A stretch of 64,000 nucleotides of DNA from Flavobacteriales bacterium (lineage in GTDB: Bacteria; Bacteroidota; Bacteroidia; Flavobacteriales_D; Crocinitomicaceae): assembly GCA_022361195.1 (NCBI GenBank), contig JAKSBJ010000078.1, positions 1 to 64,000 of the forward strand. Direction: 5' to 3'. Under the pieces are notes generated by a model. It ran no database searches. It was not told the origin of the DNA and worked only from the letters and a program-made list of their open reading frames with translations. How positions within the stretch are numbered: the stretch's first letter is position 1; each line of letters starts with the position of its first letter. Positions 51,983 through 63,415 of the stretch are shown in pieces. The translations under genes were made by a program, and so were the position numbers.

Positions 51983-52903
51983 ATGAAGAAAACAGGCTTG
52001 TTTTTGCTGTGTATTGTTCTTTCTTTCTCGGGAAAGGGTTTCGATTCATATTTGGGGTGGTCGGCCGGATTAAGTTTTTCATTTGGGAATAAAATAAATC
52101 GTTTAGGGCTTCAACTGAGTGGTTACTATAATTACGGTTTTGCGCAAGCAAATGCGCAGTTTGTCTACTATCACAATTTTCGTTCCATTGCTACCCGAAA
52201 TAAAGGCTCTGAACTACAGGCGGGTCTTGGACTTGAACTTGGCTTTGGACGTGAAGACTCAGTTCGCAATGCCTTTGTGGGATTGGGTGAAAATAATATG
52301 CAACATATTTATTCGGTAGGATATTCATATATGCGTTATTGGGATCGTTTAGAGACAAGCCAGGCAGGGGGGATGTTTTCTGTGAATATTGATGATTTTA
52401 GATTGTTGATAGAAAATGACCTTTTTGGTGCTGGTGAAGGGTGGAGAGATCATTTTAGAACGGGGGCTTTTTTGATTGAATATCAGTATGACCTCATGCG
52501 GTTTTCAACTGCTGTTGTATTGTGGACAGGTGATTATGTGGGCTGTAAGGTGGTAGAGGACGATACACTTTACCCTTGTCGTTTTGGTTATCGTTTGCAG
52601 GAAGGGTCAAAATTTGGAAATCGCTCAGCCGGATTATTCAGTTTTAGAGCCGAATATTTATTGCCATTTAATCAACGTCCTCGAATTGATGTTGGAGTAG
52701 ATTCTGAAAAGGTCCGCAATTTATTTCAAAACCGACTAATTCATGATCAGCCTTTTTTTCCACGAAGTTGGATTCGCCGAACTCCGCCACATATTCCTAT
52801 GTTGCAAGAAGATGGTAGCCAATTCCTATTTCGTGAGGGACAAAAAGTTCGCCCTGCTTCTTTTTATTACAATTTGGGCTTAAACAACATGCCTTTTTAT
52901 TAA
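51983..52903 (+). CDS. stand-alone Ntox23-like beta-rich secreted protein
   Basis: 306 residues; signal peptide MKKTGLFLLCIVLSFSGKGF. The first ~120 residues are alternating beta-strands (LGLQLSGYYNYGFAQANAQF, LQAGLGLELGFGRED). The segment FRLLIENDLFGAGEGW, RDHFRTGAFLIEYQYDLMRF fits the polymorphic-toxin type 23 (Ntox23) pattern ENDxF...D(R/H)xRT as I recall it. There is no N-terminal delivery module, no repeat scaffold and no downstream immunity-like gene, so toxin action is not supported; the fold may be a small outer-membrane beta-barrel. Divergent from the PagL-like operon. Confidence 0.8.
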   Translation: MKKTGLFLLCIVLSFSGKGFDSYLGWSAGLSFSFGNKINRLGLQLSGYYNYGFAQANAQFVYYHNFRSIATRNKGSELQAGLGLELGFGREDSVRNAFVGLGENNMQHIYSVGYSYMRYWDRLETSQAGGMFSVNIDDFRLLIENDLFGAGEGWRDHFRTGAFLIEYQYDLMRFSTAVVLWTGDYVGCKVVEDDTLYPCRFGYRLQEGSKFGNRSAGLFSFRAEYLLPFNQRPRIDVGVDSEKVRNLFQNRLIHDQPFFPRSWIRRTPPHIPMLQEDGSQFLFREGQKVRPASFYYNLGLNNMPFY

Positions 52904-54562: not shown

Positions 54563-54669
54563 GGTCGACAAAAAAATATTTGTCCTTTTTTTCTAATCGA
54601 TTAAACCTTTTTCATCATAGAGGGTCTTAGCCGTGTATGCCTTGTATTGAGGTTAAAACTAAGATCCAA

Positions 54670-55455
54670 ATGAAGACAATTTTGTTGATAGCGGTGATGG
54701 CCATTAGCCTTCATCTCACTGCCCAACTCTCGGGTGAAATTTCCTACACCACCAAAGTTAATATGCACAAAAAACTTCCACCCGGAGAAAGAGGGGAGCG
54801 GATGAAAGAGTGGATGCCGGAATTTTCTGAATTTAAAAATCAACTTTTATTTAGTACAGATGAGACCCTTTACCGCAATGTGGTAGAGGAGGAAGATGAC
54901 AATTTATTGCAGGAAGAGGAATTGTCTAAAGCGGAACGCAGAATGAAATGGGTTCAGCGCAGAATGGCCCCAGCCAATGATATTGTTTATTGTGATGTAA
55001 AGAATGGTTTGGTAGTGGAGAAGAAAGAGTTCATGGACAAAACTTTTTTAATTCGGGATACGCTAGAATTGGCCAAATGGAAAATTACCGGCGAACAAAA
55101 AGAGGTGTCAGGGATGAATTGCATGAAAGCCGTTTACATTCCTGATGATGGTGATACAACTAAAATAGAAGTTTGGTTTACACCCGAAATTCCAGTTTCC
55201 AGTGGTCCGGCGGGTTATGGTGGCTTACCTGGTTTGATTCTTCATTTGGATGTGGATGAAGGGGCTATTCAAATTTCGGTTTCAAACATCGTGATGCGTG
55301 AATTAGAGAAAGGCGAGATTAAAGAACCCAAAAAGGGGAAAGAAGTTACGCAGGAAGAGTTTGAGGAAATCCGCAGAAAGAAAATGGAAGAGCAACGTCA
55401 AATGCATGGCGGAAGAGGAGGCCCCGGACGTGGTGGTCCACCGGCTCATCGTTAA
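54670..55455 (+). CDS. GLPGLI-family secreted protein (copy 1)
   Basis: 261 residues from ATG 54670, which opens the signal peptide MKTILLIAVMAISLHLTAQ (an in-frame ATG 11 codons upstream adds hydrophilic residues). GEISYTTKVNMHKKLPPGE starts the mature beta-sandwich-like domain, and SGPAGYGGLPGLILHLDVDE carries the family's GLPGLI motif. The C-terminus is basic and Gly/Arg-rich (GGRGGPGRGGPPAHR). Function is unknown; GLPGLI proteins are typically encoded beside TonB-dependent-type receptors, as here. A paralogue follows 97 bp downstream. Confidence 0.93.
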   Translation: MKTILLIAVMAISLHLTAQLSGEISYTTKVNMHKKLPPGERGERMKEWMPEFSEFKNQLLFSTDETLYRNVVEEEDDNLLQEEELSKAERRMKWVQRRMAPANDIVYCDVKNGLVVEKKEFMDKTFLIRDTLELAKWKITGEQKEVSGMNCMKAVYIPDDGDTTKIEVWFTPEIPVSSGPAGYGGLPGLILHLDVDEGAIQISVSNIVMRELEKGEIKEPKKGKEVTQEEFEEIRRKKMEEQRQMHGGRGGPGRGGPPAHR

Positions 55456-55460
55456 AAGTG

Positions 55461-55498
55461 TTAACCTTTTTTAACCTCCCTTTAACCCGGCTTTAACC
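55461..55498 (+). promoter_or_regulatory. four phased TTAACC direct repeats, candidate response-regulator operator
   Basis: TTAACC occurs at 55461, 55471, 55482 and 55493, with start-to-start spacing of 10, 11 and 11 bp, so all copies face the same side of the helix. The last copy sits 21 nt before TAGTTTTG, at the place where a -33 TTG would be. Direct 6-7 bp repeats every ~11 bp are the usual site form of OmpR/PhoB-family regulators. Confidence 0.55.
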
Positions 55499-55519
55499 TT
55501 TTTAAGGCGCTTATTGAAA

Positions 55520-55527
55520 TAGTTTTG
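55520..55527 (+). promoter_or_regulatory. -7 element TAGTTTTG for GLPGLI copy 2 and receptor
   Basis: A full TAnnTTTG match, 24 nt before ATG 55552. No TTG at the -33 position; the fourth TTAACC repeat occupies it. Confidence 0.5.
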
Positions 55528-55551
55528 ACCTGAGAATTAAAACATAAAAAA

Positions 55552-56313
55552 ATGAAAACTATTCTATTAACATTTAGCGCTTTCCTGACAGTCATCTCAA
55601 TGGCACAAACGGAGGGAGAAGTAAAGTATACAACTAAAATTGACATGCATGCTCAACTTCCTGAAGGGGAAAATACAGAGATGTTAAAATCCATGTTACC
55701 ACAGTATCAGGAAGAAAAAAGCACTTTGTTGTTTACAACAGAAGAGACTTTATACAAATCTGGAGGAACAGATGAAAGTGTGGAGAAACAAGAGACAGAC
55801 GATGATGATAATCAGGTTCAAATTAAGATTGAAATGTCTTCACCTGAAGAAAAAATTTATACCGATGTAGAAAACGGATTGGTGGTTCAGCAAAGAGATT
55901 TAATGGATAAAATCTTTCTAATCAAAGATACCATTGATCCGGCTGAATGGAAAATTACCGGAGAAACAAAAATGGTATCGGGATTAAGTTGCCAAAAAGC
56001 CACTTTAGAGTCAGAAGAAAATGGAGTAATTGAAGCTTGGTTTACAACACAAATTCCAGTTTCAAGCGGACCAGCCGGTTTGGGAGGCCTTCCGGGATTG
56101 ATTGTATATGTAAGCATGGATGATGGAAATGTGACCATGACGGCTACTCAAATTATTCCTCGCGAAATTGAAAAAGGAGAGATAGAAGCACCTAAAAAAG
56201 GGAAAGTGGTGACACGTGAAAAATATTTGGAGTTGGAGCAAAAGAAAATGGAGCAGATGAAGAAGCAATATGGAGGTGATGGAGACGGAAACATCATCAT
56301 GATTACCGAATAA
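55552..56313 (+). CDS. GLPGLI-family secreted protein (copy 2)
   Basis: 253 residues; signal peptide MKTILLTFSAFLTVISMAQ. The mature domain starts GEVKYTTKIDMHAQLPEGE, closely like copy 1, with the same IYTDVENGLVVQQRDLMDKI region and the motif SGPAGLGGLPGLIVYVSMDD. It differs in an acidic insert (SVEKQETDDDDNQVQIKIEM) and lacks the Gly/Arg tail. It ends 25 bp before the receptor gene, so the two are co-transcribed from the promoter with the TTAACC array. Confidence 0.93.
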   Translation: MKTILLTFSAFLTVISMAQTEGEVKYTTKIDMHAQLPEGENTEMLKSMLPQYQEEKSTLLFTTEETLYKSGGTDESVEKQETDDDDNQVQIKIEMSSPEEKIYTDVENGLVVQQRDLMDKIFLIKDTIDPAEWKITGETKMVSGLSCQKATLESEENGVIEAWFTTQIPVSSGPAGLGGLPGLIVYVSMDDGNVTMTATQIIPREIEKGEIEAPKKGKVVTREKYLELEQKKMEQMKKQYGGDGDGNIIMITE

Positions 56314-56338: not shown

Positions 56339-59095
56339 ATGAAACGAATAATTCTTCTGTTTTTGATCGTTGTTGCCGGAGTGGCAAAAGGTCAATCAGT
56401 AAAAATTTACGGCCAAATTTTGGATTCTTTAGAAGGACCAATTCCAGGAGCAACCGTAATGTTGGTTGGAGCACAAGACTCCATCTTAAAATCCTTTTCA
56501 GTTTCGGATAAGGATGGACTGTTTACCTTTTCTAACATCAAAGCAGGAGAATATGTTTTTAAAGCATCCTTTTTTGGATACGATCCATACGAGCAAAGCT
56601 TATCAATTGGTAAAGGGTCGCAGGATACCAGTGTTGGTAAAATTCAGCTTCAGTCTAAAATGCTGAACAAGGTAACAGTTCAGGGACACTACATTCCCAT
56701 TCAAATTAAGGGAGATACCATTGAGTACGATTCAAGAGCCTTTGAAACCGGAGAACATGATGTAGTAGAAGACTTGTTGAATCAACTTCCTGGAATTGAG
56801 GTCAACGAAGATGGGTCGATTAAAGCTCAAGGAAAAGATGTCGATAAGATACTAGTTGACGGAGAAGAATTCTTTGCTGATGATCCAACTTTAGCGACCA
56901 AAAACCTTCCGGCTGAGGCGGTGGATAAGGTTCAGGTATTTGATAAACAGTCCGACATGGCTGAATTTACCGGGGTGGATGATGGGAATGAATCTACCAC
57001 CATTAATCTCAAACTTAAAGATTCACATAAAAAGGGAATGTTTGGAAATTTGGAAGCAGCCGGGGGGACAGATGCTCCTATCCATCAAAATGAGAGTTTT
57101 AACGATTATTTCCGTTATACAGCAAAAGGAAATGTCCATTATTTCAAGAAGAAATGGCAATTGTCTTTCATTGGAATGTCCAACAATGTCAACGAAACTG
57201 GTTTTAGTATTCGGGATTACATCAACTTTATGGGAGGAATCTCTAATATGATGCGCGATGGTGGAATGGGATTTGATTTGGGAAGTGGAATTGCAATTAA
57301 CACAGGTGGAGCGAATGATGGGTTTTTAAATACCAATGCTACAGGATTTAATTTCAATTATAAACCATCTAAACAAACGGTTTTAAATGCCAGTATCTTC
57401 TTTAATGGCTTTGATAAAACCTACAATAAAAACCTCGACCGTACCACCTATTTTGCTGATTCGTCACTGTTTACCAATGAAAGAGTAAATCAACGAAGTA
57501 CAACCATGAACAATCGTGGAAATCTCCACTTTGAACAAAAAATAGATTCCACCCATTTTATCAATGTCGATTTTTCGGGGAATTGGAATTTGGCAGACTA
57601 TTACAATGTCTCCTTGGTCAACAACTTTAATCCTCAAAATGCTTTAACGTCCGATTTTAGTACTGATCTTAATCAGGAGAATTTTAGCTATGATTATACT
57701 GCTGCAGCTGATTATCGAAAAAAGTTTGCCAAGGCAGGACGATACACTGGAGGAGGAGTTTCTTATGATGCTTCCAATAGTGATGCGAGTACTACTTTGG
57801 ATTATGTAAATCAACTCTATTTTGCTGGTGTTTCTACGGCTTTTAACATCAATCAAATTCAAGATATGATTGAAACCAGCGGGAATTTAAATGCCAATTG
57901 GATGTGGTCTGAGCCCTTAACAAAGAAAATGCTTCTTCAGACACAATATAACTATGTACGAAGAACGTCAGGTAGAGACAAAGATGTGTGGGATGTAGTT
58001 TCTGATGACCAAATTCCAAACGATTTTTTCTCGGCTGAGGCAGATTATTTATCTTTTAGACATCAGGCCGGATTAAAACACAAATACATCAGTAAAAATT
58101 TCCGAACCACAATTGGAGCAACGTACCAATATGTGAACCTTTCGGGCGATTCGATTTTCACTGCCGGACCTAAAGAGTTTCATTATGTAATGCCGTCAGT
58201 AAACATTCAGTGGGAGCCAAGTAAAAGCTCTGATATGCGAATTAATTATAGCACTTCTTTGACTTTGCCATCGCTCAATCAATTGCAGCCACTGCCTGAT
58301 AACTCTAACCCTTCTGAAGTGGTGCTTGGGAACACTAATTTGGAACCAGAGTACAATCATAACCTCATGTTCTCCTTCCACAAGTTTGATGAGTTTACTT
58401 TCACCCATTTCATGTTCCGTTTAAGTGGTGCTTATGTCACGAACAACATTACCTATTCACAAAATATCAATGAGTTTTTGATACGGGAAATCACACCAGA
58501 AAATTTGGGAGATGAAAAAAGCTTAAGCTCTTATTTGGCCTTAGGTTCGTCTTTGCATGCCATTCACATTAAGTTTAATGTATCTAACAACTCATCATTG
58601 TCTAACGGACTTATTATGTTGAACTCAGTGCAGGATCAATATACATCTTTTGCTACTACACCAACACTCAGCATTGAAAACATCAATAAAAAAGTACTTA
58701 GTGTTAGAGGTGGATTCACTTATACCTGGTCACAAAATAGTTATCAAAACAATGACTTCTTTAACAATACCTTTTCTAACTACAGTTACTTTGGAAACCT
58801 CAAACTCAAATTAAAAGACAGATGGGTGTTAAGCTCAGATATCAATCATTACTTCTATCCTGACTTTGAGGTGAATTCGCAGCAAGTTATTTTGGATGCT
58901 AAAATCGGAGTGAACCTGACTAAATCCAGAAAACTTCAACTGTACTTAGCCGGATATGATCTACTGAATCAAAATACGGGAATTAATCAATATTACCTAC
59001 AAAATATCTATGAAGAGGAAACAACCAGTACTCTTGCACGATATTTTATGTTAGGGTTTAAATATTCGTTCCAAAAGTTGGGAGCGTCTAAATAG
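56339..59095 (+). CDS. TonB-dependent-receptor-like outer-membrane protein
   Basis: 918 residues; signal peptide MKRIILLFLIVVAGVAKGQ. Residues ~22-105 form a carboxypeptidase-regulatory-like (CarboxypepD_reg) beta-sandwich (IYGQILDSLEGPIPGATVML). Then comes a plug-like domain (EDLLNQLPGIEVNEDGSIKA, KILVDGEEFFADDPTLATKN) and a large barrel to the end, with a terminal aromatic strand (YFMLGFKYSFQKLGAS). The usual plug/barrel match is close to the OMP_b-brl_3 group often found next to GLPGLI genes. No clear TonB box was seen. It should transport or display a ligand at the outer membrane; the substrate is unknown. The 25-bp gap to GLPGLI copy 2 indicates a shared transcript. Confidence 0.9.
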   Translation: MKRIILLFLIVVAGVAKGQSVKIYGQILDSLEGPIPGATVMLVGAQDSILKSFSVSDKDGLFTFSNIKAGEYVFKASFFGYDPYEQSLSIGKGSQDTSVGKIQLQSKMLNKVTVQGHYIPIQIKGDTIEYDSRAFETGEHDVVEDLLNQLPGIEVNEDGSIKAQGKDVDKILVDGEEFFADDPTLATKNLPAEAVDKVQVFDKQSDMAEFTGVDDGNESTTINLKLKDSHKKGMFGNLEAAGGTDAPIHQNESFNDYFRYTAKGNVHYFKKKWQLSFIGMSNNVNETGFSIRDYINFMGGISNMMRDGGMGFDLGSGIAINTGGANDGFLNTNATGFNFNYKPSKQTVLNASIFFNGFDKTYNKNLDRTTYFADSSLFTNERVNQRSTTMNNRGNLHFEQKIDSTHFINVDFSGNWNLADYYNVSLVNNFNPQNALTSDFSTDLNQENFSYDYTAAADYRKKFAKAGRYTGGGVSYDASNSDASTTLDYVNQLYFAGVSTAFNINQIQDMIETSGNLNANWMWSEPLTKKMLLQTQYNYVRRTSGRDKDVWDVVSDDQIPNDFFSAEADYLSFRHQAGLKHKYISKNFRTTIGATYQYVNLSGDSIFTAGPKEFHYVMPSVNIQWEPSKSSDMRINYSTSLTLPSLNQLQPLPDNSNPSEVVLGNTNLEPEYNHNLMFSFHKFDEFTFTHFMFRLSGAYVTNNITYSQNINEFLIREITPENLGDEKSLSSYLALGSSLHAIHIKFNVSNNSSLSNGLIMLNSVQDQYTSFATTPTLSIENINKKVLSVRGGFTYTWSQNSYQNNDFFNNTFSNYSYFGNLKLKLKDRWVLSSDINHYFYPDFEVNSQQVILDAKIGVNLTKSRKLQLYLAGYDLLNQNTGINQYYLQNIYEEETTSTLARYFMLGFKYSFQKLGASK

Positions 59096-62546: not shown

Positions 62547-62848
62547 TTTAATCGATTTTAAACCTTAAACAATGCGCCAATCCTTACAAAAGTAAAGACA
62601 GCAATAATCATGTAATTGGTTAAGGTACATGGTGGAATCACCATGAGGAACCGATCAAACTTCCAATTTCTTCCTTAACGATAAAGTTTGATGGAGTACG
62701 GATTGTACCTGAATCCCTTCCAATGTCGAAGGTAGAAAATTTTTGGTAAAAACGGAAAAGAAGGAATAATCGATTCAGAGAATCAACAAAAAACAAAAAA
62801 ATGTGGTTACCTTTTTTGAGTGGTTACATCATCGGGAAAGAAAGCACA
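62547..62848. promoter_or_regulatory. 302-bp divergent intergenic region with inverted repeat
   Basis: It separates the minus-strand ClpP-like T9SS gene from the plus-strand sigma gene. A minus-strand TACTTTTG (62587-62594) fits a -7 element for the T9SS gene. CATGGTG-GAAT-CACCATG (62628-62645) is a perfect 7-bp inverted repeat with a 4-nt loop, with outer GGTT/AACC pairs. No convincing TAnnTTTG for the sigma gene was seen; only very short ORFs occur. Confidence 0.5.
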
Positions 62849-63415
62849 ATGACAAACGAAATAATCTTATCGCTTTTGCGGGAAGGAGATCACGAAAGAG
62901 CCTTTAAGGCATTGTACAAACATTTCCCAAAAGTGCGAAAACACATCGTAGCCAATTCAGGAAGTAGGGCAGAGGCTCACGACATTTTTCAGGAGGCTCT
63001 GGTTATCCTGTTTAACAAAGTCAATTCGGACGAACTAAAAGCAGGTGTTGATCCTTTTGGTTTTGTTCATACCACCTGCAAATTTTTGTGGAGCAATCGA
63101 TTGAAAAAAAAGAAAGTCCGGCAAAAAAATGATTCGACAGATGTAGGTGATCTTCATTATCAGGATGAGGTTGAAGAGGCCATTCAAAAAGAACAAAAAT
63201 TTAAAATTATTGAAGACGCCCTTGAAACATTGGGTGCAAAATGTAAGAAAATACTGGAGCTGTTCTATTTCAAATCGCTCTCTATGGAAAGCATTGCCAA
63301 AAAAATAGGTTTTGCTACGGTTAAATCTGCCAAAGTGCAAAAATATAAGTGTATGGAACGTGCACGAAAGTATGCTTTGGAGCAATTGTCTAACCAAAAA
63401 AATCCACAGCCATGA
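62849..63415 (+). CDS. ECF-type RNA polymerase sigma factor
   Basis: 188 residues from ATG 62849 (MTNEIILSLLREGDHERAFK); an in-frame ATG at 62801 would add 16 residues before the usual start and is less likely. Region 2 includes AEAHDIFQEALVILFNKV and the DNA-melting stretch FVHTTCKFLWSNRLKKKK; region 4 holds LGAKCKKILELFYFKSLSME and IAKKIGFATVKSAKVQKYKC, the HTH that reads the -35-like element. It directs RNA polymerase to a set of promoters. The following gene overlaps by 4 nt (ATGA) and looks like its anti-sigma factor. Confidence 0.88.
   Translation: MTNEIILSLLREGDHERAFKALYKHFPKVRKHIVANSGSRAEAHDIFQEALVILFNKVNSDELKAGVDPFGFVHTTCKFLWSNRLKKKKVRQKNDSTDVGDLHYQDEVEEAIQKEQKFKIIEDALETLGAKCKKILELFYFKSLSMESIAKKIGFATVKSAKVQKYKCMERARKYALEQLSNQKNPQP

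Follow-up and report, generated by a model that had tools for sequence, protein, structure and literature searches.

What drives expression of the second of two adjacent GLPGLI genes and of the receptor gene behind it, and is the cluster of TTAACC repeats between the two copies part of that control? To our knowledge, GLPGLI proteins and their partner receptors, although widespread in Bacteroidota, have no known function. In the window (the whole stretch of 64,000 nucleotides analyzed here), two GLPGLI family genes lie on the forward strand. Copy 1 (54670..55455, +; TIGR01200, 144.2 bits) lies 5' of the repeat array and has a separate promoter. Copy 2 (55552..56313, +; TIGR01200, 159.5 bits, cut-off 50) is followed by a gene for an outer-membrane beta-barrel receptor with a carboxypeptidase-like regulatory domain (56339..59095, +; PF14905, PF13715, and PF00593). 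The array starts 6 nt past the stop codon of copy 1, with copy 2 and the receptor gene on its 3' side.

A pattern search confirmed the four TTAACC repeats of the preliminary description, at 55461..55466, 55471..55476, 55482..55487, and 55493..55498 (all +). Their spacings of 10, 11, and 11 bp are those of OmpR/PhoB operators, which consist of direct repeats every 10 to 11 bp. The predicted minus-7 element TAGTTTTG (55520..55527, +), of the TAnnTTTG type used by the primary sigma factor, begins exactly 21 nt past the end of the fourth repeat. Since TAnnTTTG has been placed at -12 to -5 (PMC9723704), the array would extend from about -71, where repeat 1 begins, to -34, and transcription is predicted to start near 55532, giving copy 2 a putative 5' leader of about 20 nt. 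Repeat 4, at about -39 to -34, would then occupy the place of the -33 element. The suggestion that this copy replaces a -33 TTG agrees with what we found: neither TTTG nor TTG occurs 17 to 23 nt 5' of TAGTTTTG in the window, nor at that spacing in any of the 31 distinct array sites compared here (0/31). In all 31, the distance from the last TTAACC to TAnnTTTG is 27 bp from start to start, the best distance in a search of 22 to 32 bp. In an alignment of the arrays (A1), TTAAC is invariant in repeat 1, and repeat 3, the most degenerate unit outside the window, keeps only TT as an invariant part.

We scanned the genome that carries the window (G000; 5.4 Mb, a 404-contig draft, 98.4% complete) with profiles and patterns. 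Profile R1, trained in part on the window site and its orthologs, returned two sites at 1e-14 and its next match at 0.017. Because R1 is partly circular, a leave-out profile, R2, was built solely from 11 kinase-locus arrays of other genomes. It recovered a site at a kinase locus (E 2.9e-10) and the window site (E 9.3e-9), with the next match at 0.064; the E-value calibrations are rough, yet the bit scores are far apart (37.6 versus 15.7). Matches to either profile with E >0.01 were not read as sites, except in genomes G089, G093, and G094, where partial matches at the kinase loci were judged by eye. The proposal that copy 2 and the receptor gene belong to a regulon thus held in part: a second promoter carries the same array, but the whole-genome scan gave two such promoters rather than a large regulon. 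A third site could be missing from a draft of 404 contigs. Neither of the two strong sites lies at a phosphate gene (0/2; profile scans of this 98.4% complete genome).

The second site (G000:C216:19750) has TTAACC at offsets 0, 10, and 31 and TTAAGA at 20, followed by 21 nt and then TAGCTTTG, and it shares TTAACCTTTTTTAACC with the window array. On one side of it lies a sensor kinase gene in reverse orientation (L050:8147-9718, contig C216), which adjoins the array gap and is followed by a gene for an OmpR-family regulator (L050:7458-8150, contig C216) with a receiver domain (PF00072) and a winged-helix Trans_reg_C domain (PF00486). On the other side, divergent from the kinase gene, is a forward gene (L050:9814-10854) whose secreted product carries a type-IX sorting tail; it has equivalents in the related loci L090 to L100. 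This uncharacterized protein is a candidate partner or feedback component of the system. As expected of an OmpR/PhoB-family operator, a protein with receiver and Trans_reg_C domains is encoded beside the site, and the array adjoins or reaches into the -33/-35 region.

Is this association conserved? We collected orthologs of the regulator by protein similarity, without use of the motif, and then extracted their loci. The array is present in 11 of the 11 kinase loci L090 to L100, where the regulators are 49 to 69% identical and the secreted-protein gene is divergent; the repeats there are of the type ACTTTAACC-(TTT/TAA)-TTTAACC, and TAnnTTTG or a close variant of it comes next. Of 80 regulator loci from named public genomes (Crocinitomicaceae, Crocinitomix, Fluviicola, and other Flavobacteriales metagenome-assembled genomes), 22 reach E <= 0.1 with R2, three with partial matches. 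The Flavobacterium orthologs (~55% identity) gave no R2 match at E <= 0.1. In the genus of G089, G093, and G094, the kinase-locus array is reduced to two repeats, and the secreted-protein gene is gone or replaced. Two further genomes, G041 (a member of another family of the order) and G135, have their GLPGLI-receptor unit directly divergent from a different kinase-regulator operon, and an array separates the two. The G135 array is without a good minus-7 element at the 27-bp register. The adjacent regulators of these two genomes are 33 to 34% identical to the C216 regulator, so more than one regulator has come into this association or stayed in it.

Similar arrangements occur elsewhere. RprY-like kinase loci located beside an aldehyde-dehydrogenase-like gene (L101, L102, and L103, and also L108) carry TTAAC(A/C) arrays, with TAnnTTTG 27 bp 3' of the array in L101 to L103 and 26 bp in L108. 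We regard them as a sister regulon built in the same way. In genomes G018, G032, and G141 (L038, L046, and L047), TTAACC triples also separate another kinase-regulator operon from a gene for an outer-membrane beta-barrel protein.

We then compared the array with the history of the genes that it precedes. The receptor was found at E <= 1e-100 in eight genomes of the family, with orthologs 51 to 57% identical in seven of them; a scan of the named genome collection returned no receptor matches. The ortholog in G022 retains the array at 57% receptor identity. The check proposed in the preliminary description, conservation in the orthologous gaps of relatives, was run, and the repeats proved to be conserved there together with the 27-bp register. 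GLPGLI genes of receptor-bearing genomes form two clades (support 100/99). The array lies 5' of all five clade-2 genes (copy 2 of G000 and of G022, and the genes of G089, G093, and G094), while TTAAACC-N16-GTC, always with the same spacing, lies 5' of all five clade-1 genes (copy 1 of G000 and of G022, and the genes of G004, G010, and G088); clade matches promoter type in 10 of 10 genes. From its sequence, the latter element, found at 54601..54626 (+) in the window, looks like an ECF-sigma promoter. Mutually similar sigma-factor-like genes are found near the GLPGLI-receptor unit in the window (62801-63415) and in G089 (L112:1802-2377), one of which may serve the copy-1 promoter. The C216-type regulator is present in five of the five genomes with an array at GLPGLI. 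G010 and G088 have neither the regulator nor an array at GLPGLI; G004 has the regulator, a GLPGLI gene of clade 1 only, and a receptor gene without the array.

The best NCBIfam model for the C216 regulator, and hence the nearest described system by this measure, is RprY of the Bacteroidota RprXY system, yet the score of 258.9 bits is under the curated equivalog cut-off of 370. An assignment as PhoB was rejected (Bacteroidota PhoB model, 161.8 bits versus a cut-off of 270). The preliminary description regarded the array as a new site type, which does not stand. In cyanobacterial Pho boxes, SphR of Synechocystis binds a minimum of three CTTAACCT copies separated by 3-bp linkers, one every 11 bp (PMC1906773). 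PhoP of Riemerella anatipestifer has the core TTTAACA and binds 5' of its own operon; its direct targets include several genes for GLPGLI proteins, TonB-dependent receptors, and outer-membrane beta-barrels (PMC9603813, PMC5399024). Given the SphR hexamer and spacing and the Riemerella core and targets, the site type was already known in kind. Our array resembles the SphR boxes in its OmpR/PhoB-family regulator, its hexamer, and its spacing. It differs in that SphR serves cyanobacterial phosphate genes, whereas this array is tied to no phosphate gene, its regulator is not PhoB by the NCBIfam cut-off, and its minus-7 element is the Bacteroidota TAnnTTTG. With Riemerella PhoPR it shares a Flavobacteriales OmpR-family regulator and GLPGLI, receptor, and beta-barrel targets; it differs in having two sites, against 583 peaks there, and in that the Riemerella core ends in A rather than C. 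A phased array and a replaced -33 element are not described in the accessible parts of the two Riemerella reports (PMC9603813, PMC5399024), and we liken the two systems by core and targets. Similarly, loss of the OmpR-type two-component system PG0719/PG0720 (HaeSR) of Porphyromonas gingivalis alters GLPGLI genes; this GLPGLI link is alike, but no repeat motif for HaeSR was found in the accessible parts of the sources (PMC8757827, PMC3764172). In the open-access literature, we found no description of the phased array, the 27-bp register, or the present regulator.

Altogether, the array is probably the operator of the C216 OmpR-family regulator, which would activate copy 2 and the receptor gene from the -33 position. 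In many related marine bacteria, the same array, exactly as far from the promoter, lies next to the regulator genes, and for this reason we read it as the docking site of the C216 sensor-regulator pair. That an element of this kind flanks an OmpR-family kinase/regulator operon in the same genome and in relatives also favors the OmpR-family control first suggested for the locus, as far as sequence comparison can speak to it. Genomic adjacency, the count of two sites, and co-occurrence point to the C216 regulator in particular, and activation is suggested by the fixed spacing and by the lack of a -33 element. According to this model, the kinase would phosphorylate the regulator, which would bind the 10- to 11-bp repeats head to tail, as two dimers per four repeats. 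The promoter-proximal subunit, in the place of the -33 element, would recruit primary-sigma polymerase to TAGTTTTG, switching on copy 2 and the beta-barrel receptor in a class-II-type activation. Through the equivalent array, the same regulator would act on the type-IX-sorted secreted protein divergent from the kinase gene and perhaps also on its own operon, while copy 1 would be under separate control via its ECF-type promoter.

A broader proposal, to which we give an even chance, is that the GLPGLI-receptor operon and the kinase-adjacent, surface-secreted protein are linked by a dedicated two-component system whose regulon comprises just two promoters, and that anciently split GLPGLI paralogs bring different promoter classes (ECF sigma versus response regulator) to the same receptor, control changing with the paralog that is kept. 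Promoter class, at any rate, tracks GLPGLI paralog identity. Assigning the operon to one particular kinase/regulator pair, and giving it an operator defined to the base, a predicted start, and a candidate partner protein, makes its signal and function testable. The locus also offers a well-conserved case in which an OmpR-type activator may take the place of the -33 element in a promoter of the TAnnTTTG type.

Several other explanations of the array deserve consideration. A chance cluster of AT-rich repeats would be suggested by the lower orders of the motif, which occur at chance frequency. The preliminary description was right that single copies exist elsewhere, but its remark was incomplete, as both strands of the window hold 48 TTAACC versus 46 expected. 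Pairs 10 to 11 bp apart number 7 in the whole genome versus 11 for the reversed pattern and, lacking enrichment, are uninformative by themselves; own-genome pair matches at L001 and L002, both inside open frames, and at L004, without a third repeat or a minus-7 element in register, were set aside. The higher-order array alone stands out. In 240 genomes of the family, exact TTAACC triples occur 12 times versus once for the reversed pattern, and a four-unit-plus-minus-7 score of >=24 was reached 32 times in the fetched loci, some of these being one site counted in overlapping loci, versus 0 times in reversed sequence. Conservation in orthologous gaps refutes chance; the triples, the four-unit scores, the R2 matches, and the 27-bp register in 31/31 sites speak against it too, and we consider a random origin next to impossible. 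It is also very improbable that an ECF-sigma promoter uses repeat 4 as its -35 element and that the repeats are incidental. While the adjacent copy 1 does have TTAAACC-N16-GTC, that motif reads TTAAACC and not TTTAACC, no GTC follows any array TTAACC at the ECF spacing, and what is conserved instead is TAnnTTTG at 27 bp.

Alternatively, the regulator could be a repressor, with the array blocking the promoter; Riemerella PhoP, after all, raises some GLPGLI genes and lowers others (PMC9603813). We consider repression quite unlikely here, given that the -33 element is absent in 31/31 sites and the array lies at a fixed helical distance 5' of the minus-7 element, as expected of an activator that replaces -33. 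Unlikely, too, is binding by a sibling OmpR-family regulator, such as an RprY-like protein or the PhoB of the same genome, in place of the C216 regulator. The genome has eight Trans_reg_C matches, the Riemerella core TTTAACA goes with GLPGLI targets (PMC9603813), and in the RprY-like loci L101 to L103 of relatives, TTAAC(A/C) arrays likewise stand 27 bp from TAnnTTTG. With at least two sibling regulators beside such arrays, a paralog could bind the window array, and similar half-sites make cross-regulation possible. However, L260, the RprY-like locus examined in the genome itself, has no such array, genomes without a C216-type regulator have no array at GLPGLI, and the sole other strong site in the genome adjoins the C216 kinase gene and shares TTAACCTTTTTTAACC with the window.

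The neighborhood of the operon holds one more gene that recurs in a relative. A secreted protein with a match to Pfam Ntox23 (bacterial toxin 23) is encoded at 51983-52903 of the window, and a protein similar to it is encoded near the GLPGLI-receptor unit of G089 (L112:12921-13850).
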